Assembly (NCBI GenBank): GCA_007695115.1
Contig: REEK01000121.1
Location: 1-58,855 of the forward strand
Origin: Sphaerobacteraceae bacterium
GTDB taxonomy: Bacteria > Chloroflexota > Chloroflexia > Thermomicrobiales > Thermomicrobiaceae
Length of the DNA stretch: 58,855 bases
Direction: 5' to 3'
Positions 1-54,955 of this stretch are shown in pieces. Each line of letters begins with the position of its first letter. Within the stretch, counting starts at the first letter, position 1. The position numbers were made by a program, and so were the translations under genes. Below the pieces are notes generated by a model. The model was not told where the DNA came from, did no database searches, and saw only the letters and a list, made by a program, of their open reading frames with translations.

Positions 1-1048
1 CACGTTCGGTGAAGATGACGGTCTGATTGTCGAGCCAGCCGGCGAAGTTCCGGGTTCGGAGTCCGAACCACCGGTGGATGAACTGCCGCTCCCCCTGCAG
101 GTCGAACACGCGCAGCGAACCTACCCGCTCTTCGACGCGGCTGTATTCCTCCCATCGGACCACCAGATCGCCGTCCGGTGACACGATGATCGGGTTCCAC
201 CAGTCGTGAGCTGGATGACTCATGACGTTTCTGCGGGAACCGGATGCCAGATCGAGCGCGATGACCTCGGCGTCTGTCGACACGAGAAGCCATCCCGGGT
301 GCTCCTCCTCGATCTCTGCACTGTTCAGCAGCGGTGCCGCCCCGGATTCCCGGGCAGCCCCATACCCGACAACCAGCAGCGTCACGATCGCGATGATCAC
401 CACCGCGAGAATGCCGATCAACAGCAGCATCGGGTTCCGGTTCAGACTGGCCCGGTGGTTGTCGTCTGCGGGAACGATGGCCGGTGAGGTTCGAACGGTC
501 TCGCGTAATCGTTCATCGAGCGCACGGGAGTTCTCCAGCGCTGCGGAGCAGACGTCGCAGGAGCGCGAGTGGTTGGCCAGCGAGATCAGGGCTTCGGCTT
601 CGAGTGCCGGATCATCGTAGCGCCCGATCGCATCCTGCATGTGAGGGCAGGCGGATTCCTCTGGCGTGGTGACGGACATTCTCGCCTTGAAGAGTGCTGA
701 TCCTGCATCAGCCGGATTGATCCCCAATGCGTGAGACAGGGTTTCGAGATCGATCCGACCACCGGCGTGAAACGCGAGCAGGACCGCGCCTGTGGATGAG
801 ATTCCGCTTGATGGATCGAGCGCTTTGCCGGTGGCTCCAGTCCCAAATGGAATCCGGGAAAAGACGCCAGTCGCCTGATGCCGTTGATGGACCCGGCGAA
901 GGAGTGATCGGAGTTCATCGGCGTCCAGGATCTCTTCATTGCCGAGATCGATGGCGATCTCTTCCTGGCGCTGAAGCAGGGCGAGTATCCGGGAGACGGT
1001 GTCGCGCTCGATCCGGAATGCCCGCCCGTTTCCCGGGGTCTCGCTCAT
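1..1048 (-). CDS. Membrane protein with HTH-like and zinc-finger N-terminus and extracellular propeller (partial)
   Basis: Open minus-strand frame from ATG at 1048 to the window edge (349 codons, C-terminus missing). Residues about 75-105 look like a degenerate sigma-70 region 4 helix-turn-helix (LLAFHAGGRIDLETLSHALG, then a KAR ending). This is followed by an anti-sigma type zinc finger ending HSRSCDVC (HxxxCxxC), one TM segment (LLLIGILAVVIIAIVTLLVV), and an outer part with propeller-like strands (VSPDGDLVVRW, GWLDNQTVIFTE). It starts 7 bp after the stop of the similar 1004-residue gene upstream, so the two are probably co-transcribed tandem paralogues. A membrane-tethered regulator or sensor is inference; no ligand or partner is known. 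Reading frame checked codon by codon. Confidence 0.75.
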   Translation of the reverse strand, partial: MSETPGNGRAFRIERDTVSRILALLQRQEEIAIDLGNEEILDADELRSLLRRVHQRHQATGVFSRIPFGTGATGKALDPSSGISSTGAVLLAFHAGGRIDLETLSHALGINPADAGSALFKARMSVTTPEESACPHMQDAIGRYDDPALEAEALISLANHSRSCDVCSAALENSRALDERLRETVRTSPAIVPADDNHRASLNRNPMLLLIGILAVVIIAIVTLLVVGYGAARESGAAPLLNSAEIEEEHPGWLLVSTDAEVIALDLASGSRRNVMSHPAHDWWNPIIVSPDGDLVVRWEEYSRVEERVGSLRVFDLQGERQFIHRWFGLRTRNFAGWLDNQTVIFTER

Positions 1049-7622: not shown

Positions 7623-10600
7623 ATGGGACTGTTGACGCAGCTTCGAAACCATATCGGCATGAAGCCGAATCCGATCAGCCGATCGACCGACGAGATGCGC
7701 CCCCGGACCGATGGCGCCGACGTGACGGTCAGTGTCTGCCCGTACTGCGCGGTGGGCTGTTCTCAGCTTGTCTACGCCAAGCAGGGCCGGATCATCGATA
7801 TCGAGGGCAACTACGACAGCCCGATCAATGGCGGAACGCTCTGCCCCAAAGGTGCGGCCACCTACGGCCTGCTCCACAATCCTCACCGCGAGACCACGGT
7901 CAAATATCGCGCACCGTATAGCGACCACTGGGAAGAGCGGCCGCTCGAGTGGGCGATGGACCGTATCGCCGAGCGCGTGAAACAGACCCGCGACGCCACC
8001 TATGAGGAGACTGACGAGAACGGCGTTCCGGTGATGCGGACGCTGGGGATCGGTCATCTTGGCGGGGCCACGCTGGACAATGAAGAGAATTATCTGATCA
8101 AGAAGCTCTTCACCGGCGGTCTGGGGATCGTTGCCATCGAGAATCAGGCCCGGATATGACACTCCAGCACGGTGCCCGGTCTGGGCGCCAGACTCGGACG
8201 CGGCGGGGCAACCATGCCGCAACAGTCACTGGCTGATAGCGACTGCATCGTCATCATGGGCTCGAACATGGCCGAGAATCACCCTGTCGGGTTTCGCTTC
8301 GTAATGAAGGCGAAAGAGCGCGGAGCGACGATCATCCATATCGATCCCCGCTTCTCACGGACATCGGCGATGGCTGATCTTCACGTCCCGATTCGTGCCG
8401 GGTCCGACCTGGCGTTCCTCGGCGGGTTGATCAACTACGCGCTGTCGAGCGATCGCTGGGAGAGCGTGCCGTTCTTCCGCGAGTTCGTCCAGAGCTACAC
8501 AAACGGCCCAACGATTATCGGAGACACATTCAAAGACACCGAAGACCTCGCCGGGATGTTCTCGGGCTACGATCCAGAATCCGGCGCGTATGAATCCTCC
8601 ACCTGGGCCTACGATGAGGGCCACCTCGATCCGGAGATGACCGATCCTCGCTGCGCGTTCCAGATCATCAAGCGGCATTTTTCCCGCTATACCCCGGAGA
8701 TGGTGGAGCAGGTCTGCGGTGTGCCGCAAGAGCTCTTCGAGCAGGTTGCCGAGGCGATTCTGACGAGTTCCGGGCCAGATCGGACCACCGCGTTCTGTTA
8801 TGCCGTGGCCTGGACCCAGCACACCACCGGCACACAGATCATCAGCTGCTGCGCGCTGTTGCAGTTGCTGCTGGGGAACATGGGTCGGCCGGGTGGTGGG
8901 ATTCTGGCCCTTCGCGGCCACGCCACGATTCAGGGCAGCACCGATATTCCGACGCTCTACCACCTGCTGCCCGGCTACATATCCATGCCGATGGTCGATG
9001 CCGGTCACCTCGATCTGCAATCGTTCATGGACGCCATCCAGCAACCGAAAGGCTGGTGGCACAACGCCCCGAAGTACATAGTGAGCTTCCTGAAAGCCTG
9101 GTACGGGGATGCCGCGACCGGGGAGAACGACTACTGCTTCGACTATGTTCCGAAGATTTCCGGCGACTACTCCTTTGCGGCGATGATGCCGATGATGAAG
9201 GACGGGACCATCAAGGGGCTCTTCTGCATGGGAATGAACCCGGCGGTCGGTGGGCAGAACTCGAAGCTGATCCGGGAAGGTCTGGCCAATCTCGACTGGA
9301 TGGTGATGCGGGACCCATATGAGATCGAGACGGCCGCCTTCTGGCACGATTCGCCGGAAGTTCGTAGCGGGGAGGTTCGCCCTGAAGACATCAAGACGGA
9401 GATCTTCTTCCTGCCTCCGGCCGTGACACCGGAGAAAGACGGCTCTTACACGAACACGCAGCGGCTGGTTCAGTGGCACGAGAAGGCGGTCGATCCGCCG
9501 GAAGATTGCCGCTCCGAGCCGTGGTTCATGTACCACCTGGGACGGCGCCTGAAAGCTCTCTACGCCGACGAAGAGACCCCACAGGCCCGTCAGCTCCAGG
9601 TGCTGACCTGGGACTACGACACCGAAGGGATCTACGATGACCCGCGTCTGGAGCAGGTGATCGAGGAGATCAACGGCTACACCGTGAGAGATCGGAAACT
9701 CGTCTCCGGATTCGCCGAGTTGAAAGACGACGGCTCGACGGCCTGCGGATGCTGGATCTATTCCGGGATCATGCCGGAACCGGGGCTGAATCTGGCGCGA
9801 AACCGGAAGGGCGACGATGCGGCATCGCTCGAGTGGGGCTTCGCCTGGCCGGCCAACCGGCGGGTTCTCTACAATCGCGCCTCGGCCGATCCGTCCGGTA
9901 AGCCGTGGAGCGAGCGCAAGCGCTGGATCTGGTGGGATGAAGAGCAGGAACGGTGGACTGGCTACGATGTGCCCGACTTCCCGGCTACCAAGCGTCCCGA
10001 CTATCGACCCGGGCCAGATGCCGTCGGTATCGATGCCCATCGCGGCGATGCACCGTTCATCATGATGCCGGACGGCCATGGTTTGCTCTTCGCTCCGGCC
10101 GGACTCGTGGATGGTCCGATTCCGACGCATTACGAACCGTGGGAGAGCCCGGTGACCAATCTGCTCTACCCGGAGCAGGTGCGTTCTCCGGTGGTTCCGA
10201 CGTTCGATCGGCCAGACAATCAGTATCACGAGATCGGCGATCCACGATTTCCCTATGTGCTGACCACCTATCGACTCACCGAGCATCACACCGCTGGTGG
10301 GATGAGTCGATTCGTTCCCTGGCTGGCCGAGCTTCAACCTGGCGGATTTGCCGAGATCAGCCCGGAGCTGGCCGGTGAGTTCGGAATCGACAATGGCGAC
10401 TGGGTAACGCTCACCACCTTACGTGGGGAGATCGAAACCCGGGCGCTGGTGACCGAGCGGTTGCAGCCATTGACGATTCATGGTCGGCCGGTTCACCAGA
10501 TCGGGATGCCGTGGCACTATGGCTGGGGTGGCATGGCCACGGGCGATATCGCCAACGATCTGAGCGCCCTGATCGAGGATCCGAACTCCCGCATTCATCA

Positions 10601-10676
10601 GGCAAAGGCGTTTACCTGCGATCTGAGTCGCGGACGCCTGCCCCGGACGAACGGAGCTTCAGGCGATGATGAGTGA
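7623..10676 (+). CDS. fdhA: Formate dehydrogenase catalytic subunit, selenocysteine-containing
   Basis: 1017 residues when the in-frame TGA at 8157-8159 is read as selenocysteine (residue 179). The N-terminus binds a [4Fe-4S] cluster (C39, C42, C46, C74 in VCPYCAVGCSQ and LCPKGA). The Sec context is ENQARI-U-HSSTVPGLG, the signature of Sec-type formate dehydrogenases, where Sec ligates Mo/W and Cys is the usual substitute. Bis-MGD binding motifs follow (IVIMGSNMAENHPVGF, HIDPRFSRTSAMAD), and a C-terminal molydopterin dinucleotide domain (NGDWVTLTTLRGEIETRALV). Length matches FdnG/FdoG, but there is no twin-arginine signal, so the active site may be cytoplasmic. It is the first gene of fdhA-fdhB-nrfD. 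The enzyme oxidises formate to CO2 and passes electrons to the beta and membrane subunits. A standard gene caller would split it at 8159. Confidence 0.96.
8171..8189 (+). promoter_or_regulatory. SECIS hairpin of fdhA
   Basis: In the mRNA, 11 nt after the UGA, GGUGCCC (8171-8177) pairs with GGGCGCC (8183-8189) over 7 bp around the loop GGUCU (8178-8182). The loop begins 19 nt after the UGA, the same place as the GGUCU of E. coli fdhF. This matches the bacterial SECIS bound by SelB. Confidence 0.9.
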
Positions 10677-32626: not shown

Positions 32627-33511
32627 TCAGGAGAGGTGAGCCAGAGCTCGCCAGTCTGCCGTTTTCTGCACGATGCGGTCTCGGAGTCGCAGTGGGTTGG
32701 CGACAGGTAGCTGATCGAGGATCGGACCAAGATCTTCCAGCATCCATTGGCCAGCCCAGACCATGAATGGCGCGAGGTCTTCAACTGATCCAGCGTTTCT
32801 CTGATACCCCTGCATAAACGCCCTCGTGAACAACCCGAGCGTCATTCGACGGGCCCCATGTTCAGCGATGAACAACGGCGCAGAGACCTGCAGAATGGTG
32901 AGGGCTCGAGCGACGTCTGCTCGCGGGTCGCCGACGGAGCTGTTGGTCCAGTCGAGAACTCCGACGATTCGTCCACCTTGAGCAACCAGGTTGAACGGGT
33001 GAAAATCGAGGTGGAGTAACGATCCAGCACGGACTGAGAGCCGGGTGAGACTTGCTACCAGCGCAGGGTCGTTGCGGGCACCCCGGGCGATCCAGTTGTC
33101 GCTGCCCGGAATTACTGGATCCGGGATAGCATGAATCTTTGCCAGACAATTCCCGGCCTGTGCACCAAGTCGGCGAGCCAGGTGAGGCTTCTGGAGCAAT
33201 ACGTCACCGACTGACTCTCCGGCCATCCACTCGATGGCCATCGTCGGTCGCCGTCCATCGATCATGGCAGTGCTGACGATGGCTGGTGCTGGAACTCCGG
33301 CGGAGCGCACCAGATCCATCGAGCGGTGCTCGATTTCCATCACCGAGGTCTGTTCTTCCCGCAGTACACGAATCGCGAGTAACCGACCATCGTGCCTCAC
33401 TTGCCAGACACTGGCGTCCGTTGCACGTGTTTCGGCCGAAACGAGTTCGGCCGACGGTAGCCCTAGCACGTCCAATGCTGAGTGGAGAAGACCATCGTTA
33501 CCGGACTCCAC
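32627..33511 (-). CDS. Aminoglycoside phosphotransferase-family (APH) kinase-like protein
   Basis: 294 residues from GTG at 33511, preceded by a G-rich ribosome site. Protein-kinase-like fold: beta-lobe with Lys-equivalent LLAIRVLREE, hinge MAIEWMAGES, catalytic loop LLHLDFHPFNLVAQ (Asp and Asn) and metal site GVLDWTNSSVGDPRADVARA. These are the APH/choline-kinase motifs, for ATP-dependent phosphorylation of small molecules; substrate unknown. It follows the phosphatase gene by 18 bp on the same strand, so the kinase-like and phosphatase genes may form an operon. Confidence 0.85.
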   Translation of the reverse strand: MESGNDGLLHSALDVLGLPSAELVSAETRATDASVWQVRHDGRLLAIRVLREEQTSVMEIEHRSMDLVRSAGVPAPAIVSTAMIDGRRPTMAIEWMAGESVGDVLLQKPHLARRLGAQAGNCLAKIHAIPDPVIPGSDNWIARGARNDPALVASLTRLSVRAGSLLHLDFHPFNLVAQGGRIVGVLDWTNSSVGDPRADVARALTILQVSAPLFIAEHGARRMTLGLFTRAFMQGYQRNAGSVEDLAPFMVWAGQWMLEDLGPILDQLPVANPLRLRDRIVQKTADWRALAHLS

Positions 33512-45414: not shown

Positions 45415-46896
45415 ATGACCGGATACGCGGGAACGGTTCGCGCTCCAGAGTTTCCGGAGCGGCTCGAATGGTTCAACTCGCAACGACCACTTCGCCTGGC
45501 AGACCTCCGGGGCAAGGTAGTGATTCTCGATTTCTGGACGTTCTGTTGAATCAACTGCTTGCACATGCTTCCCCAGTTGGAGAAGCTGGAACAGCAGTTT
45601 CCGGATGAACTGGTGATCGTCGGCGTCCATTCGGCCAAATTCCCGGGAGAGCGGCCTGGTGGGAGCCTCCGGAGCGCCGTGCAGCGAAACCGGATCCAGC
45701 ACCCGGTGGTCAACGACGCCGATTTCCAGATATGGCAGGAGTACAGCGTCCGGGCCTGGCCAACGCTGATGTTTCTCGATCCGTCCGGCATGGTGATCGG
45801 CAAGCACGAGGGTGAAGCTCCTGCGTCTGCGTTGATCGCGGCAGTCGGCGAACTGATCACTGAATATGACCGAATGGGGATGATCGATCGATCTCCGATC
45901 GAGCCACTGCAGCGAGATGCGCTTCCGACCAGCTCACTGGCGTTCCCCGGCAAAGTGCTAGCTGACGACGTCAGCCAGCGACTGTTCATCGCTGACACGG
46001 GGCATGATCGCGTTGTGGTCACGTCGCTCGATGGCGAGGTTCAGCAGGTCATTGGGTCCGGCCAGCGGGGCACGACTGATGGAGCGTTCGCAGAAGCAGA
46101 ATTCTGGCAGCCACAGGGGCTGGCACTGAATGGCGATACGCTCTACATCGCTGACACCGGGAATGGCTCGATCCGGGCGGCGGATCTGGTTGGCGGAGAG
46201 ATCCGGACGGTTGCGGGAACCGGCGAGCAGGGCCACGGCATGCCCGAGGCCGGTGCGGCGCTGGAGACGGCGATTCGGTCTCCGTGGGACCTTGAGCTGG
46301 TCGACGGCTGGCTCTACATCGCGATGGCCGGAACGCATCAGATCTGGCGGCTCGACCTCGATTCCGGGCGCATCGAACCGTATGCCGGTGATGGTGTGGA
46401 AGCGATCCGGGATGGGGATCGCGCCCGCGCATGGCTGGCACAGCCGAGCGGACTCGCCAGTGGAAACGACCGTCTGTACTTCGCTGACAGCGAGACAAGC
46501 GCTATCCGCTATGTCGAACTGCCACCAGGCGATCAGGTAAGCACGCTGGTGGGTACTGGGCTGTTCGATTTCGGTGATGTTGATGGAGCGGGTGACCAGG
46601 CTCGTCTACAGCACCCGATCGGGCTGACGGTTCACGCCGGAACGGTCTACGTCGCCGACAGCTACAACCACCGGATCAAACGGTTGAATCCGGAGACGCG
46701 GGAAGTTGCGGCCTGGATTGGCTCTGGGGAGCCGGGAGATGACGATGGCGTCGGGAGCGATGCCAGTTTCGATGAGCCAGCCGGTCTGAGTGTAGCCGGA
46801 GGCACACTCTACGTTGCCGATACGAACAATCACCTGATTCGGGCGGTTGGGCTCGGTTCGGCAGATGTCCGGACGCTAGAGATCACCATTGATTGA
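45415..46896 (+). CDS. Thioredoxin-NHL-repeat selenoprotein (CUINC)
   Basis: 493 residues when TGA at 45547-45549 is read as Sec (residue 45). The thioredoxin-like N-terminus reads [26 protein letters not shown], where the family (NHLRC2-like) normally has CCINC. The domain then continues [31 protein letters not shown]. From about residue 190 on are NHL beta-propeller repeats ([67 protein letters not shown]). Without Sec readthrough the protein would stop after 44 residues; the remaining frame starts only inside it. No signal peptide. Sec replaces the Cys before INC, so the redox pair is Sec45 and Cys48. Confidence 0.93.
45567..45586 (+). promoter_or_regulatory. Candidate SECIS of the thioredoxin-NHL gene
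   Basis: GCUUC (45567-45571) with CC (45572-45573) pairs with GG (45579-45580), bulged A, GAAGC (45582-45586); loop CAGUU at 25-29 nt after the UGA. An alternative CAACUG/CAGUUG pairing (45552-45579) exists. Weaker than the other elements. Confidence 0.45.
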
Positions 46897-47312: not shown

Positions 47313-47624
47313 GTGAACCATGAACAGACCGGAATCGACACCCCTGAAACCAGCGATTCCTATCAACAGGACAAGGCTCGTATTCTGGCCCGATTGCGCC
47401 GCATGGAGGGGCAGGTACGTGGCGTGCAACGAATGGTCGAAGAGGACAAGTACTGTGTCGATATTCTGACGCAGATCTCCTCGATCATGGCCGCCGCTCG
47501 TGGAATCGGCCTGGTGATTCTCGAGGATCACATCCGTGGATGTGTCACCAACGCCGATGATCAGGAAGCTGCCTTGCAGGAAGTGATGGACGCACTGGAG
47601 CGATTTACGAAGAGTGTTGGTTGA
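47313..47624 (+). CDS. csoR: Copper-sensing repressor CsoR
   Basis: 103 residues from GTG 47313, selected because AAGGAG lies 8 bp upstream; ATG 47298 is an in-frame alternative. DUF156/CsoR fold. Cu(I) ligands are C48 (EDKYCVDIL), H73 and C77 (LEDHIRGCV). An Arg in RLRRMEGQVRGVQR fits the DNA-binding face. It represses the copper efflux gene immediately downstream (85 bp), with its operator at 47257-47277. Confidence 0.93.
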   Translation: MNHEQTGIDTPETSDSYQQDKARILARLRRMEGQVRGVQRMVEEDKYCVDILTQISSIMAAARGIGLVILEDHIRGCVTNADDQEAALQEVMDALERFTKSVG

Positions 47625-47709: not shown

Positions 47710-50511
47710 ATGACCAGTACACCAACCAAGACTGACCAGAACCAGACTGAAGAGCAGGCTCACGAGGCGACGTTGCTCGTCTCCGGAATGACCTGTGCCT
47801 CCTGCGTCCGGCGAGTCGAGCGCGGCCTCGAAAAGCTCGACGGTGTGGGATCGGCCAGCGTCAATCTGGCGACTGAGCGGGCTCGTGTCTCCTATGATCC
47901 GTCTACGCTGTCTCCTGACGATCTCCGGGCTGCGGTCGAAAAGGCAGGCTACGGAGTCGATCAGATCGATGCTGGCGATCCTTCGCCTGCCTCGAACGGG
48001 CATGCGCCGGCGTCGGCCGCTCCCGAGCCTGGCGAGATCACGCTCGATGTCGAGGGAATGACCTGCGCATCGTGTGTCCGCCGTGTCGAGCGCTCATTGA
48101 GCCGGGTGGACGGAGTCAGCCAGGCGAGCGTCAACTTCGCCACCGAGCAGGCCACCGTCTCCTATGACCCGGCATCGGTCGATATCAACGCACTGACGGC
48201 GGCGGTTGAGAAGGCGGGATTCGGCGCAAGCGTTCCGCAGGCACGCGAGTCTGCGAGCTCTGCGCAACATGCCCAGTCCGCTCAGGAACAGGTTGACCCG
48301 CGAGAAGCGGCCCGAGAGCGGGAGATGAACGATCTCAAGCGCAAGTGGATCGTCGGTCTGGCGATCGGCGCGGTGATGATGATCGAGATGTATGTCCCGC
48401 TCGGGATCGACATGGAGTATCTGGCACCGCTGATGCTCATTCAGGCGGCGATCGTGCAGTTCTGGGCTGGCTCGATCTTCTACAAGGGCGCCTGGGCTGC
48501 CGCAAAACATTTCACGACCAATATGAACACGTTGGTGGCTATCGGCACCAGTGTCGCGTTCGGCTACAGCGCATTCGTGACGCTCTGGCCCGGCCTGGCC
48601 GCACAATGGGGATTTCCGTTCCATCTCTATTTCGAGACTGCGGTGGTCATCATCGCGCTCGTCCTGATGGGGCGCTGGATGGAAGCCCGAGCCAAGAAGC
48701 AGACGAGCTCTGCCATCAAGGCGCTGGCCGGATTGCAGGCACGCACGGCACGGGTCATTCGTGATGGTGTGGAACAGGATATCCCGATTGAGTCGGTTCA
48801 GGCTGGTGATCACGTCCGAGTTCGACCGGGCGAGAAAGTGCCGGTCGACGGGGTGATCGTCGAGGGCGCATCGGCACTCGACGAGAGCATGCTGACTGGC
48901 GAGAGTGTGCCGGTGGAAAAGAGTGCCGACGACCAGGTGATCGGTGCCACGATCAACAAGACCGGAAGCTTCGTGTTCCGGGCAACCAAGGTTGGTCGAG
49001 ATACCACGCTGTCTCAGATCATGCGTATGGTCGAAGAAGCACAGGGGTCGAAGGCGCCGATGCAGGCGATGGTCGACACCATCTCGAGCTACTTCGTGCC
49101 GATCGTGCTGGTGGCGGCCTCACTCGCGTTTGCTGTATGGCTCGCCTTCGGACCCGGACTGATCTTCGCGCTGACCGTGATGATCGCGACACTGATTATC
49201 GCCTGCCCGTGTGCGCTCGGACTGGCTACGCCGACGGCGATTATGGTCGGAACCGGAAAAGCGGCCGAGAACGGCATTCTGGTGCGCGGTGGAGAAGCGC
49301 TGGAGATGACTCGCCGCATCGACACGATCGTGCTAGACAAGACCGGCACCCTGACACAGGGCAAGCCGACGGTAACGGAGATCGTTACGGCCAACGGAAT
49401 GCCGGAGTCCGACGTTCTTGGTCTGGCCGCTGCCGCGGAAGTCGGCTCAGAGCATCCCCTCGGTGAGGCGATCGTCAATCGAGCGCAGGAACTGGGGCTC
49501 GATCTATCGCAATCAGAAGGTTTTCAGTCGATCACCGGCAAGGGTATCGAAGCTCGTGTCGACGGACGTCAGGTGCTGATCGGCAATCGGGCACTGATGG
49601 ATCAGTACAGCATCGAGTTGGATGGGCTGACGGCCCGGGCGACCGAGATGGCTGCTGGAGGCGTCACGCCGATGTATGTGGCGGTTGACAACACCGGAGC
49701 CGGGATCATCGCTGTGGCTGACACGCTGAAGCCGGAGTCGACCGAAGCGGTCGCCAAGCTCAAGGCACTCGGCCTGGAAGTCTGGATGATCACCGGCGAT
49801 AACCAGGCAACCGCAGAAGCGATTGCCCGGCAGGTCGGTATCGATCACGTCCTGGCTGAGGTCCTTCCGGAACAGAAGGCCGAGAAAGTCGTCTCATTCC
49901 AGGATGAAGGCCGTACGGTGGCGATGGTCGGCGACGGGATCAACGACGCCCCGGCGCTGGCTCAGGCGAACCTCGGCATTGCGATCGGCACCGGAACTGA
50001 CGTCGCAATGGCGGCATCGGACATCACGCTGATTGGTGGCGATCTCCGGACGATCGTAACCGCGATCGCCCTCTCCCGGAAGACGGTTGGCGCGATCAAG
50101 CAGGGTCTGTTCTGGGCGTTCGGGTACAACACGCTGCTGATTCCAGTGGCGATGGGAATTCTCTATCCGTTCTTCGGATTGCTGCTGAATCCGGTTCTGG
50201 CCGCCGCAGCGATGGCGATGAGCAGCGTCTCGGTGGTAACCAATGCGTTGCGCTTGCGAGGCTTCCGCCAGCCAGACACGGCGGAGGAGATCCTGAACCC
50301 GCCCCTGAAGGCTCGGATTGGCGAATATGCGTACCTGGTCGCGATCGGCGTGGTGGCGATCATCGTCGGTGGCTTCGCGCTGGTGTTGGCGAATCCAGAT
50401 CATGCCGAGGGACATGCCCCAGGCGGACATTCTGATCACGGCGCAGTGGTTGAGCCGGCGCCAGTAGCGGATCACGGACAGCCCGGGATCGTCCTGGAGG
50501 ATGAGCGGTAG
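47710..50511 (+). CDS. copA: Copper-exporting P1B-type ATPase
   Basis: 933 residues. Two N-terminal HMA domains, each with GMTCASC (about residues 26-32 and 116-122), then eight TM helices including the ion channel [14 protein letters not shown] (about 497). Cytoplasmic motifs: GESVPVEK (A-domain), phosphorylated Asp in [10 protein letters not shown] (about 543), SEHPLGEAI, and [10 protein letters not shown]. The C-terminus ends in a His/Asp-rich tail ([17 protein letters not shown]). It exports Cu(I). Directly regulated by the upstream CsoR. Note that its HMA pairs are CxxC, in contrast to the UxxC of the Sec-HMA protein elsewhere in the window. Confidence 0.96.
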
Positions 50512-51889: not shown

Positions 51890-53020
51890 TCAGGTAGTGG
51901 CGGGTTCGGTGCCGCCCTCATGCTCGATCCGTAGCTGACCGCAGGCAGCGGCGATATCGACTCCCCGGGAGTAGCGTACCGAGGTCGGGATTCCACTGTC
52001 GTCGACTATGTCGGCAAACCGCTTGATCTGGTCTTCTGTCGGTCGCTCGTAGGATGGTTCAGCCGGTGTCGGGTTGAGCGGAATGATATTGACGTGGCAG
52101 AGCAATCCCTTGAGCAGGCGTGCCAGCTCACGAGCGGTCTTCTCCGAGTCGTTGACATCCCTGATGAGGCAATACTCGAATGAGATCCGGCGCCCGGTCG
52201 TATCGACGTATCGCCGGCAGGCACTGATCAGTTCCTGGACATTCCATCGACGATTGAGCGGCACCAGCGTGTCTCGCTGCTGATCGGTTGGCGCGTGAAG
52301 TGAGATCGCCAGTTTTACCTGCAACGGATCTGCGGCGAGTCTGTCGATGAACGGCACCAGGCCAGACGTTGAGACGGTGATCCGGCGTGCGCCGAACTTC
52401 ATGCCTTCTGGATCATTGAGAATCCGGGCCATACGCATCGTGGAATCGTAGTTCTGGAACGGCTCGCCCATTCCCATCATCACGATGTTGGTGAGCTGAC
52501 GATCGAGCTCCTGCGTTCGCCGGGCTGCCGCGACGACCTGCCCGACCATCTCTCCGGTCGAGAGATTCCGGGTCAGCCCCATCATGCCGGTCGCGCAGAA
52601 ACTGCAGCCGACGGCGCACCCGATCTGGCAGGAAACGCATACGGTCACCCGGTCCGGGTAGAACATCAGGACGGTTTCAATGTGATTGCCATCGTGGGTG
52701 CGGAAGAGCAGTTTCAGCGTTTCACCGTCATCGGTCTGAATCTCCTGTACCGGCTCCAGCTGCGTCAGCGGAAGCTCGTTTGCCAGATCATCCCGAAGCG
52801 CTTTCGGCAACACGGTCATCGTATCGTAGTCCGGTGCAAGCTGCTGGTAGGCCCAGTGATACAGCTGGCGAGCACGATAGGCGGGATGCCCTGATTCGCC
52901 CAGTTTCTCTGTCAGTTCGTCCAGTGTCAGATCGTAGAACGTCTGTGGCGTACCGCGACGAACCCGCACTGGTGTGGCTGGTTCCTGATTGATAATTGTC
53001 GGGTCGTCGCTGGTCATCAT
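51890..53020 (-). CDS. rlmN: 23S rRNA (A2503-C2)-methyltransferase RlmN
   Basis: 376 residues. Radical SAM cluster in CAVGCSFCATG (CxxxCxxC), preceded by VCVSCQIG. Further motifs: NIVMMGMGEPFQNYDSTMRM, RRITVSTSGLVPFI, LAISLHAPTDQQRDTLVPLNRR, VNIIPLNPTP, and a C-terminal VRYSRGVDIAAACGQL with the methyl-carrying Cys. It methylates 23S A2503 and some tRNAs. Starts 6 bp after the Sec-HMA stop, so co-transcribed with it; that association may be incidental. Confidence 0.95.
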   Translation of the reverse strand: MMTSDDPTIINQEPATPVRVRRGTPQTFYDLTLDELTEKLGESGHPAYRARQLYHWAYQQLAPDYDTMTVLPKALRDDLANELPLTQLEPVQEIQTDDGETLKLLFRTHDGNHIETVLMFYPDRVTVCVSCQIGCAVGCSFCATGMMGLTRNLSTGEMVGQVVAAARRTQELDRQLTNIVMMGMGEPFQNYDSTMRMARILNDPEGMKFGARRITVSTSGLVPFIDRLAADPLQVKLAISLHAPTDQQRDTLVPLNRRWNVQELISACRRYVDTTGRRISFEYCLIRDVNDSEKTARELARLLKGLLCHVNIIPLNPTPAEPSYERPTEDQIKRFADIVDDSGIPTSVRYSRGVDIAAACGQLRIEHEGGTEPATT

Positions 53021-53026
53021 TTAGCC

Positions 53027-53392
53027 TTAGTCACTCATATCTTCCCAGGAATCGGGCCGATAGCCGATCCCTTCGAGTTCATCCATGATCTCGTCGATCG
53101 AGACGTGATCGGCATCGTACCGGAGTTCGACCACATCGCTCTGAAAGTCGGTGCTGTGGTCCAGAACGCCGTCAATGCTGTTCAACTCGGACGCGACCGC
53201 GCCCGCGCAAGACTGTCAGGTCATGCCCAGATTCTGGAGCATGACGTGTTGTTCACCAGATGCTGAAGCTCCGGGAGAGACTGATTCTTCGTCGTCACCC
53301 GATAGAGCCGTTGTCGCAATCAGGAAGGCGCCAGCGCCGACCATGAAAAATGCGCCGAGTGCAAGCAAGATCGTACTGAAAGATTTCCCCAT
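53027..53392 (-). CDS. Membrane-anchored HMA metal-binding selenoprotein (GMTUxxC)
   Basis: 121 residues when TGA at 53216-53218 is read as Sec (residue 59). N-terminal helix (FSTILLALGAFFMVGAGAFLIATTAL) is a signal anchor, followed by an acidic linker. Then the HMA domain: MLQNLGMT-U-QSCAGAVASELNSIDGV, LDHSTDFQSDVVELRYDADHV, EIMDELEGIGYRPDS. In MerP/CopZ/Atx1-like domains this motif is GMTCxxC, so the first metal ligand is Sec and the second is Cys62. ATG at 53392 has GGAG 9 bp upstream; ATG 53401 is possible. It lies 6 bp before rlmN and 187 bp after the Sec-CcdA gene. Likely partner or substrate of CcdA outside the membrane (inference). Confidence 0.93.
53189..53204 (-). promoter_or_regulatory. 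SECIS hairpin of the Sec-HMA gene
   Basis: GGGCGC (12-17 nt after the UGA) pairs with GCGUCC (22-27) around the loop GGUC at 18-21. Same loop and spacing as the FDH and CcdA elements and as E. coli fdhF. Confidence 0.88.
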
Positions 53393-53579
53393 CGATGTCA
53401 TCTCCGTCAATCAGTAGAAGGGTCTGGAACATCCGGTCGATGTACTGGTATTAATCTTACCCTGTGTAGCCGGGTTATGCTGCGCAACTACTACCAGGGC
53501 GATGACCGGACACTGCGACGCTGAAATGCTGGCTGTACCGGGGTAGCCGCATCACAACATCGTAGTGGTTATCTGGAGA

Positions 53580-54461
53580 CTAAACCGGGAATACCGTCGC
53601 GAAGTAATCCGCCCAGATAGCGAGGGCGAGGAACCAGATGCCAACTCCGATGAGGACCATCCCGCCAAAGCGTTTTGCGCTTGATGAAGCGATTCGAAGT
53701 GAACGAATCGTCTGTTCGCGAGCGGTCGTCACCAGTATCGCGAGGGTGAACATCAGTGCGAGGATGACGATGCTTGCCGTGAGGAAGGCTCCGATCGCGG
53801 CGGCAGTTCCTCCGATGACGAGAGCATAGGCGGCCAGACCGGCCAGAATCGGCCCTGTTCAGCCGAAGCCCGCCACCAGGTATCCGAAGCCGAAGAGTGA
53901 GATTCGCCCGATCCCGGCGTTGGCTCCACGTTGTTTGACCGCCCCAACGAGCGGGTCAGCCAGATCCTGAACGGGTGGGATACGGAAGGGAAACACTCCG
54001 AGTTGAACCAGTCCGAGAAGGATCAGCAAGGAGCCAACAACGCTCCGCAGGATGACCCCTTCGGTACTGGCGAACACGACTCCTTCGAACACCTGTGTTC
54101 CCGCCACCGCGATAATCCCGCCGATTATCAACAGGAACGCTGTGGCACCGCCTGACAGGGCCATCGCAAACGGTAGCGTCTGGCGCCATGATGGGCGATG
54201 TCCGCTCCGCTCCTGGCTGGGTGATCTCCCGAACAGACTGATGAGCAGCGGAAACGAACACGGTGAAAAGAAACTGGCGATGCCAGCTCCGGCAGCCAGC
54301 ACGAAGAGCCCGGCAACAGTGACTCCCGGCAGATCAAACCGTGGATAGATCACATATCCCAGATAGCCGACGAGACTGGCCAGGATCAGCCCGACGAGGA
54401 TCGCACCGTAGCCGATGATTGAGCGGCTGGTCAGGGTGGACAGAGTGTTGTGCTGTTTCAC
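53580..54461 (-). CDS. CcdA/DsbD-like membrane redox selenoprotein
   Basis: 293 residues when TGA at 53859-53861 is read as Sec (residue 201), from GTG 54461 with AGAGG upstream. About seven TM helices. The first redox Cys68 lies in GIASFFSPCSFPLLISLFG, the second position in the later half reads ISLFGFGYLVAGFG-U-TGPILAGLAAYAL. In CcdA this is GCxGPIL or similar, so Sec replaces the second of the two intramembrane cysteines that shuttle electrons from cytoplasmic thioredoxin to outer-side proteins. The frame continues without interruption to TAG at 53580. It is just downstream of merR, with a MerR-type promoter between. Confidence 0.92.
53831..53845 (-). promoter_or_regulatory. SECIS hairpin of the Sec-CcdA gene
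   Basis: UGGCC (14-18 nt after the UGA) pairs with GGCCG (24-28, one U-G) around GGUCU at 19-23. The loop sequence and distance are identical to the fdhA element. Confidence 0.88.
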
Positions 54462-54502
54462 GGTGCCTCTCACCTTGTGGCGTTCCTTCGAACTCTGATG
54501 AG

Positions 54503-54534
54503 AGGCTACCGTCTCCACTCGACTGGAGAGTCAA
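54503..54534 (-). promoter_or_regulatory. MerR-type promoter/operator inside the merR 3' end
   Basis: On the minus strand TTGACT (54534-54529), 20-bp spacer, TAGCCT (54508-54503). The spacer holds an imperfect dyad, about CTCTCCA-GTCGAG-TGGAGA. The over-long spacer (20 bp, as for ZntR-type sites) with a central dyad is the hallmark of MerR-family activation, and the transcript would start about 35 nt before the Sec-CcdA GTG. The site overlaps the last nine codons of merR. Confidence 0.8.
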
Positions 54535-54955
54535 GGACTTCTGGGGTTCCTGCATTGAGGGACTCTATGGCCGGGCAGACCACCTCAACGAGTGATCCAT
54601 CCGAATGCTCCGCGTTGTCCAGTTCGTACAGTGTTCGAGACAGATTATCGCGCATCGCCTGAAGCTGGACGATACGGTCATCGAGTTCCTGCATATTCTG
54701 TTCGACAGCCGAGCGAACACAGGGGCAAGGTGAGTGTTCAGTGGAGGCTGAAGCGAGTATCCGTCTGATCTGCTCCAGCCTGAGACCAAGCCCCTGCGCC
54801 GCACGAATGAACGCCAGTTGCTGCTGGTGACGATCGGTGAACAGGCGGTAACCGGACTCTGTCCGGGATGCCGTCCCAAGCAACCCGATATCTTCGTAGT
54901 AGCGGATCGTCCGCACCGGGACGCCAGTTTTTTCCGCCAGTTCTCCGATTCGCAT
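54506..54955 (-). CDS. MerR-family metal-responsive regulator (ZntR/CadR-like)
   Basis: 149 residues from ATG 54955 with GGAGACC upstream. N-terminal winged helix RIGELAEKTGVPVRTIRYYEDIGLL, dimerisation coiled coil (SAVEQNMQELDDRIVQLQAM), metal-site candidates C77 and C79 (SPCPCV) and C127 (VVCPAIESL). Compared with ZntR/CadR (several Cys/His) and MerR (three Cys), the exact metal cannot be assigned. It follows rraA by 20 bp and probably controls the downstream Sec-CcdA/Sec-HMA genes through the operator that overlaps its own 3' end. Confidence 0.9.
   Translation of the reverse strand: MRIGELAEKTGVPVRTIRYYEDIGLLGTASRTESGYRLFTDRHQQQLAFIRAAQGLGLRLEQIRRILASASTEHSPCPCVRSAVEQNMQELDDRIVQLQAMRDNLSRTLYELDNAEHSDGSLVEVVCPAIESLNAGTPEVLDSPVEWRR

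Follow-up and report, generated by a model that had tools for sequence, protein, structure and literature searches.

An HMA-domain protein with a UxxC site and an adjacent CcdA-like protein as probable selenoproteins of a MerR-controlled module in Chloroflexota

A small HMA-domain gene of this contig carries an in-frame TGA at the first position of a CxxC metal site. Is this codon read as selenocysteine (Sec, U), and what would selenium do there, with which partners and with which metal? In the window (the whole stretch of DNA that was analysed, 58,855 nucleotides), the initial annotation had described a membrane-anchored HMA domain with a UxxC site, without naming its strand, which is minus. 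The features of this gene are as follows.

53027..53392, minus strand: gene of the HMA selenoprotein, which has a single transmembrane helix at the N-terminus, a short acidic linker and an HMA domain with UxxC
53216..53218, minus strand: TGA as Sec, first position of the CxxC site (GMT-U-QSC), from frame, alignment, selection and hairpin
53315..53371, minus strand: predicted transmembrane segment of 19 residues, ILLALGAFFMVGAGAFLIA, with a mean Kyte-Doolittle value of 2.45
53060..53227, minus strand: HMA domain, Pfam match PF00403; pLDDT of the predicted model ~95 there
53188..53205, minus strand: SECIS-like hairpin behind the HMA TGA, with a GGUC loop at +20 on a stem of 7 bp

With TGA translated as U from 53392 to 53027, the gene gives MGKSFSTILLALGAFFMVGAGAFLIATTALSGDDEES...HVMLQNLGMT-U-QSC-AGAVASELNSIDGV...SWEDMSD followed by a stop, and its start, MGKSF, is common to the same-genus homologues. 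Read with C for U, the protein scored 44.2 bits in the Pfam HMA family (PF00403), whose cut-off is 24.8. In the predicted model, the HMA part follows the beta-alpha-beta-beta-alpha-beta order of such domains; confidence is high there and low at the N-terminus. Moreover, in the alignment U61 and C64 occupy the two Cys positions of CxxC, giving UxxC, and column 61 is invariantly Cys or Sec in 11/11 chosen rows. The anchored HMA domain with a UxxC site is thus borne out by a predicted transmembrane helix, a Pfam match over the cut-off and a TGA in register. Lys before the helix and Asp/Glu after it suggest that the HMA domain lies on the outer side of the membrane.

A homologue search for GMTU, as proposed in the initial annotation, found TGA at this exact HMA codon in at least 14 genomes, our own included. 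The homologues continue past the TGA, and do not all end before it, which was the outcome named there as contrary to a Sec reading. Among the 61 genomes of the order, at least 11 carry this form, HMA-U (own, G385, G409, G410, G316, G365, G415, G414, G403, G406 and G401; G and L numbers are our handles for genomes and loci), and at least three more (G329, G029 and G229) were found in a 400-genome draw of the phylum; these counts leave out the TGA-flagged G012, G238, G403:C124 and G253. The second Cys of UxxC is kept in all 14 HMA-U genes, and the residues between U and C vary. In addition, a pattern scan of genome contigs gave nine loci, of which three were true (L094, L096 and L098); at the other six, an HMA protein around the match was not found. 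The TGA near the HMA of G330 (L039) was rejected as a Sec site, as it lies upstream of the ATPase start, and those of G446, G440 and G424 were rejected as lying outside a Cys-form HMA domain.

Selection on the frame was compared on both sides of the codon in three same-genus sequences (own, G385 and L094). Past the TGA, pN was 0.21-0.25 and pS 0.64-0.83; before it, pN was 0.17-0.24 and pS 0.72-0.82. These values indicate purifying selection that is equal before and after the TGA. The source assembly (3.68 Mb in 186 contigs) also has the Sec machinery, with selA at 524.5 bits, selB at 361.3 bits and tRNA-Sec at 74.7 bits. Each of the 11 HMA-U genomes from the order has selA over the cut-off, as does G229. 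In G029 and G329, both of them incomplete assemblies, selA and selB over their cut-offs were not found, and tRNA-Sec was over the cut-off in both.

Directly upstream, on the same strand, lies a second gene with an in-frame TGA.

53580..54518, minus strand: CcdA-like membrane protein with in-frame TGA, directly upstream of the HMA gene
53859..53861, minus strand: TGA (GFG-U-TGP) aligned with the second of the two membrane Cys of CcdA-family proteins
53831..53845, minus strand: SECIS-like hairpin behind the CcdA TGA, with a GGUCU loop at +21 on a stem of 5 bp

Twenty chosen CcdA-family rows were aligned, namely 18 of the 41 matches listed and two CcdA-family neighbours of HMA-U genes. P86-C87 is invariant in 20/20 of these rows and so is C/U220, where 16 ordinary relatives have Cys and four close ones have TGA. 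Past the TGA, pN was 0.136 and pS 0.623 over 92 codons (own against G385). The best PDB match of the predicted model by Foldseek was CcdA, 5vkv, with probability 1.00, a weak E of 0.023 and a TM of 0.44 on the query. The protein itself had no Pfam (PF02683 included) or NCBIfam match at 0.001, and a Cys relative in G240 matched PF02683 with 29.6 bits against 27.1. Thus the likeness to CcdA (5vkv; DsbD_TM, PF02683) consists in the fold match and the two invariant membrane Cys positions, whereas the second Cys is here Sec. Intact CcdA-U genes were found in our genome, G385, G409, G403, G406, G126 and G174. Degraded copies were also observed in the same-family genomes G182 and G190 (L087:5726-6652(-) and L088:3547-4265(+)); both genomes still have selA, so that the gene was lost and not Sec decoding. 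The CcdA-like gene therefore appears, from its alignment and the selection past the TGA, to be the second selenoprotein of a pair, one that the initial annotation had overlooked.

Both TGAs are followed by a hairpin of the same kind, as is that of a further gene of the window.

7623..10676, plus strand: formate dehydrogenase alpha subunit with TGA 8157-8159 (ARI-U-HS); hairpin stem 7, GGUCU at +21

This subunit is a standard selenoprotein and provides, within the window itself, a positive control for both Sec use and the hairpin. In the window scan, a strict hairpin was defined as GGTC-capped, with a stem of at least 5 bp, at +18..24 from the TGA. Only 4 of the 2002 TGA trinucleotides of the window (both strands) were followed by one: the HMA TGA, the CcdA-like TGA, the formate dehydrogenase TGA and a TGA at 33046(+), which is antisense to a gene called at 32627-33511(-). 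The strict hairpin was present in 10/14 HMA-U genes, in 8/9 CcdA-U genes (two of the nine degraded) and in our own FdhA, and in 0/9 Cys homologues. Among the four HMA-U genes without it, those of G409 and G365 retain GGTC on a mismatched stem (continuous over 3 bp and 1 bp, respectively), that of G329 has GATCA on 6 bp, and that of G029 has no GGTC-type loop. Since the motif was picked after sight of the HMA and CcdA genes, it is the Cys controls, the distant genomes and the formate dehydrogenase that carry independent weight. The HMA hairpin showed modest covariation (0.230; mean of the shuffles 0.112), and 10/500 shuffles were as high. Rfam at curated thresholds gave no match in the whole window, and with E up to 5 it gave only two chance-like matches in 53000-54600. 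A joint alignment of the HMA and CcdA hairpins was misaligned.

Could the HMA TGA simply be an ordinary stop, a sequencing error or the mark of a pseudogene, leaving a 58-residue membrane peptide (from MGKSF) and a dead HMA part? TGA is indeed a normal stop in this window too, where it ends 16 of the 38 genes picked, and by this count a general reassignment of TGA was rejected. However, TGA recurs at the same codon in the genomes counted above, purifying selection continues after it, a hairpin follows it and the Sec machinery is present, so that we regard a stop as extremely improbable; recurrence, selection and hairpin refute it at the sequence level. By the same evidence, the observation of the initial annotation is correct and well supported, and the HMA TGA appears to be read as selenocysteine.

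Contrary to the initial annotation, Sec is not specific to this protein, for the adjacent CcdA-like gene and the formate dehydrogenase, and possibly a thioredoxin-like protein, also have in-frame TGA codons. The last of these is a thioredoxin-like/NHL-repeat protein at 45418-46896 (+), with a TGA at 45547-45549 inside FWTFC-U-INC (Pfam Thioredoxin_8 and NHL). A GGUC hairpin behind this TGA was not found, and Sec in this protein is possible.

The two genes belong to a larger set, which opens with a regulator.

54506..54955, minus strand: metal regulator of the MerR family, with which the set begins, from profile and solved-relative matches

In our genome, G385 and G409, the order is MerR, CcdA(U) and HMA(U) followed by two further genes, which we take to be rlmN and larC. 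In G403 and G406, it is MerR, CcdA(U), DUF7482 and HMA(U), and the HMA(U) protein there is without the anchor helix. G229 has MerR, a P-type ATPase, HMA(U) and CcdA(Cys), and G029 has HMA(U) and CcdA(Cys). In G240, another Chloroflexota genome and Sec-capable, the order is MerR, HMA(Cys), CcdA(Cys) and DUF7482. Gene sets of Sec/Sec, Sec/Cys and Cys/Cys make-up thus represent one module in which two sites, one site or neither holds selenium. HMA-U and CcdA-U genes adjoin, or stand one gene apart, in five genomes (own, G385, G409, G403 and G406). The pairing is not strict: a genome-wide search with the CcdA-like protein found no match in the HMA-U genomes G316 and G365, CcdA-U was not found in the stretch examined in G415, G414, G401 and G329, and G126 and G174 have CcdA-U with no HMA-U detected. 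The contig of G410 ends before the place of CcdA-U. DUF7482 (PF24298) was seen to recur in MerR-CcdA-HMA operons, in Sec and Cys versions (L136:3365-3922(-), L137:643-1203(-) and L089:5942-6538(-)). P-type ATPases adjoining HMA-U genes were observed at L054:5022-7550(+) and L141:5277-8067(+); L047, the same ATPase gene as L054, has GYPCAVG instead of the usual CPC, which may mean an unusual metal.

With regard to the metal, the window also holds a transport locus on the strand opposite to the HMA gene.

47313-47624, plus strand: metal-sensitive repressor, PF02583, ahead of the copper-type ATPase
47710-50511, plus strand: copper-type P-type ATPase with two CxxC domains

The statement of the initial annotation that this ATPase keeps its CxxC sites was confirmed. 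A repressor of this family ahead of an ATPase suggests copper; a PF02583-like repressor stands ahead of the ATPase in L094 as well. Solved relatives nearest to the MerR regulator are CadR, PDB 4ua1, 5gpe and CueR, and a Cys of the regulator (near position 78) aligns with the Cys of CadR, 4ua1 and 5gpe. Cys at this position points to a divalent soft metal; CueR has Ser77 there. MerA over the family cut-off was found in two of the ten genomes searched (G401 and G329). In G401 it lies at G401:C37:93-1478, on the same contig as HMA-U at 8183-8413 and ~7 kb apart, and our genome had no MerA over the cut-off (best 387.7 of 454.45 bits).

These data bear on three other accounts of the protein. The initial annotation had thought of a mercury-specific MerP-like carrier or trap, with Sec/Cys binding Hg(II) outside the membrane. 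Weak matches to the MerTP fusion and MerP models, the MerA genes of G401 and G329, and a regulator whose best matches include CadR and 4ua1 with the aligned Cys speak in its favour; however, most of the genomes searched, ours among them, had no MerA over the cut-off, the HMA selenoprotein scored 23.5 bits in the MerP model (TIGR02052), below its curated cut-off of 92.55, the nearest metal ATPase of the window, 3 kb away, stands behind a PF02583 repressor, which suggests copper, and a trap leaves out the co-encoded CcdA-like partner. We consider mercury specificity rather unlikely, and the earlier soft-metal proposal stands in part, through the HMA fold, the MerR-type regulator upstream and the MerA ~7 kb from the G401 relative. 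Copper(I) is quite unlikely in the form of an outward-facing CopZ-like chaperone that partners the window ATPase. CopZ (NF033795) was indeed the best NCBIfam match, at 47.2 bits and so below its curated cut-off of 91, and the CxxC ATPase and its PF02583 repressor lie 3-6 kb from the HMA gene, but this ATPase is on the other strand with a repressor of its own, and the MerR regulator aligns its Cys with those of CadR and 5gpe at the position of Ser77 in CueR.

Metal might also play no part. The HMA fold would then serve the CcdA-like protein as a thiol/selenol carrier based on selenium, in accordance with the electron transport by CcdA in its known system (5vkv), with the positions of both U residues at redox-type Cys sites, and with the statement in the available part of PMC2398784 that most known selenoproteins are thiol oxidoreductases. 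Against this, the HMA profile matched 58 solved chains whose names denote metal transport, metal binding or chaperones, the genes are preceded by a MerR-type regulator and the Cys homologue of G240 is a CopZ-like HMA; a redox relay free of metal transport is thus unlikely in our judgement.

As the best explanation of the whole, we suggest that the genes probably encode two neighbouring selenoproteins that belong to a soft-metal module under MerR control, as far as sequence comparison can tell. SelB and tRNA-Sec would insert Sec at both UGAs. The N-terminal helix would hold the HMA domain outside the cytoplasmic membrane, and its Sec/Cys pair could bind a soft ion, for example Cu(I), lead, Hg(II) or another ion of group 12. 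Selenolate binds soft metal ions more tightly than thiolate, and the Sec/Cys HMA would bind such an ion tighter than the CxxC form. With less certainty, the CcdA-like protein may work with the HMA protein via its Cys87/Sec220 pair. It would more likely pass electrons across the membrane and keep the easily oxidised HMA selenolate reduced, because electron transport is the known work of CcdA; less likely, it would carry the metal ion across, for which MerT, which takes mercury from MerP across the membrane, is an analogue. The full picture of a two-selenoprotein membrane relay, with an extracytoplasmic UxxC metallochaperone and a CcdA-type Cys/Sec protein under MerR control and selenium on both sides of one hand-over (of electrons or metal), is a plausible but tentative proposal.

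Sec in HMA domains is already known, from the GOS MerP, NF041115, NF045683 and a P-type ATPase. From marine metagenomes (GOS), Table 2 of PMC2398784 lists a Sec-containing MerP and a putative mercuric transport protein. What these share with our protein is Sec in a MerP-type protein, reported there in 2008 with two sequences from one sample; the table entry, which allows comparison by description only, has neither a motif nor a CcdA-like partner. Table entries of PMC2398784, PMC9312934 and PMC13188914 contain a UxxC cation-transporting ATPase E1-E2, also a heavy-metal transport protein with UxxC, where the motif is part of a P-type ATPase, as against a separate anchored domain here. A UxxU putative mercuric reductase is among the entries of PMC9312934. 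The 2026 review PMC13188914 lists, in its available part, the metal-binding (seleno)protein NF041115, which likewise has Sec in the metal site of an HMA-type domain, and all 11 HMA alignment members (three with Cys) match this family at E<=0.001. However, NF041115 has UxxU, whereas our protein has Cys as second ligand, a membrane anchor and a CcdA-like neighbour, and with ~42 (41.9) of 95 bits it is below the cut-off. The NCBIfam family NF045683, MerT/CopZ fusion-like heavy metal transport selenoprotein, combines by its name a membrane part and a Sec HMA and matches 7/11 HMA alignment rows at E<=0.001; our protein has no match at 0.001 and a single anchor helix in place of a MerT-like membrane part.

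A named selenoprotein to compare with the neighbour is the rhodanese/DsbD fusion-like TsoB (NF045694), given in the available part of PMC13188914, also a selenoprotein with a DsbD-type part; TsoB has UxxxxU and a rhodanese fusion, and our CcdA-like protein has no NF045694 match. A description of a CcdA-like selenoprotein was not found in the available parts of PMC2398784, PMC13188914, PMC9312934 and PMC12013277 or in a literature search, sources of partial coverage that make earlier publication possible. The novelty appears to lie in the adjacent CcdA-like selenoprotein, in its pairing with the HMA protein and in the occurrence of a single operon in Sec and Cys variants. A stop-to-stop list of open reading frames cuts both genes at UGA, and such pairs are therefore easily missed.

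The Sec/Sec, Sec/Cys and Cys/Cys forms of this operon in related Chloroflexota are a natural experiment on selenium in metal sites, in which metal affinity, oxidation rate and hand-over could be compared between natural Sec and Cys forms. Moreover, Sec in the membrane pair of a CcdA-type transporter would offer a test of whether this pair carries electrons or metal, because selenolate changes the carriage of electrons and of metal differently.
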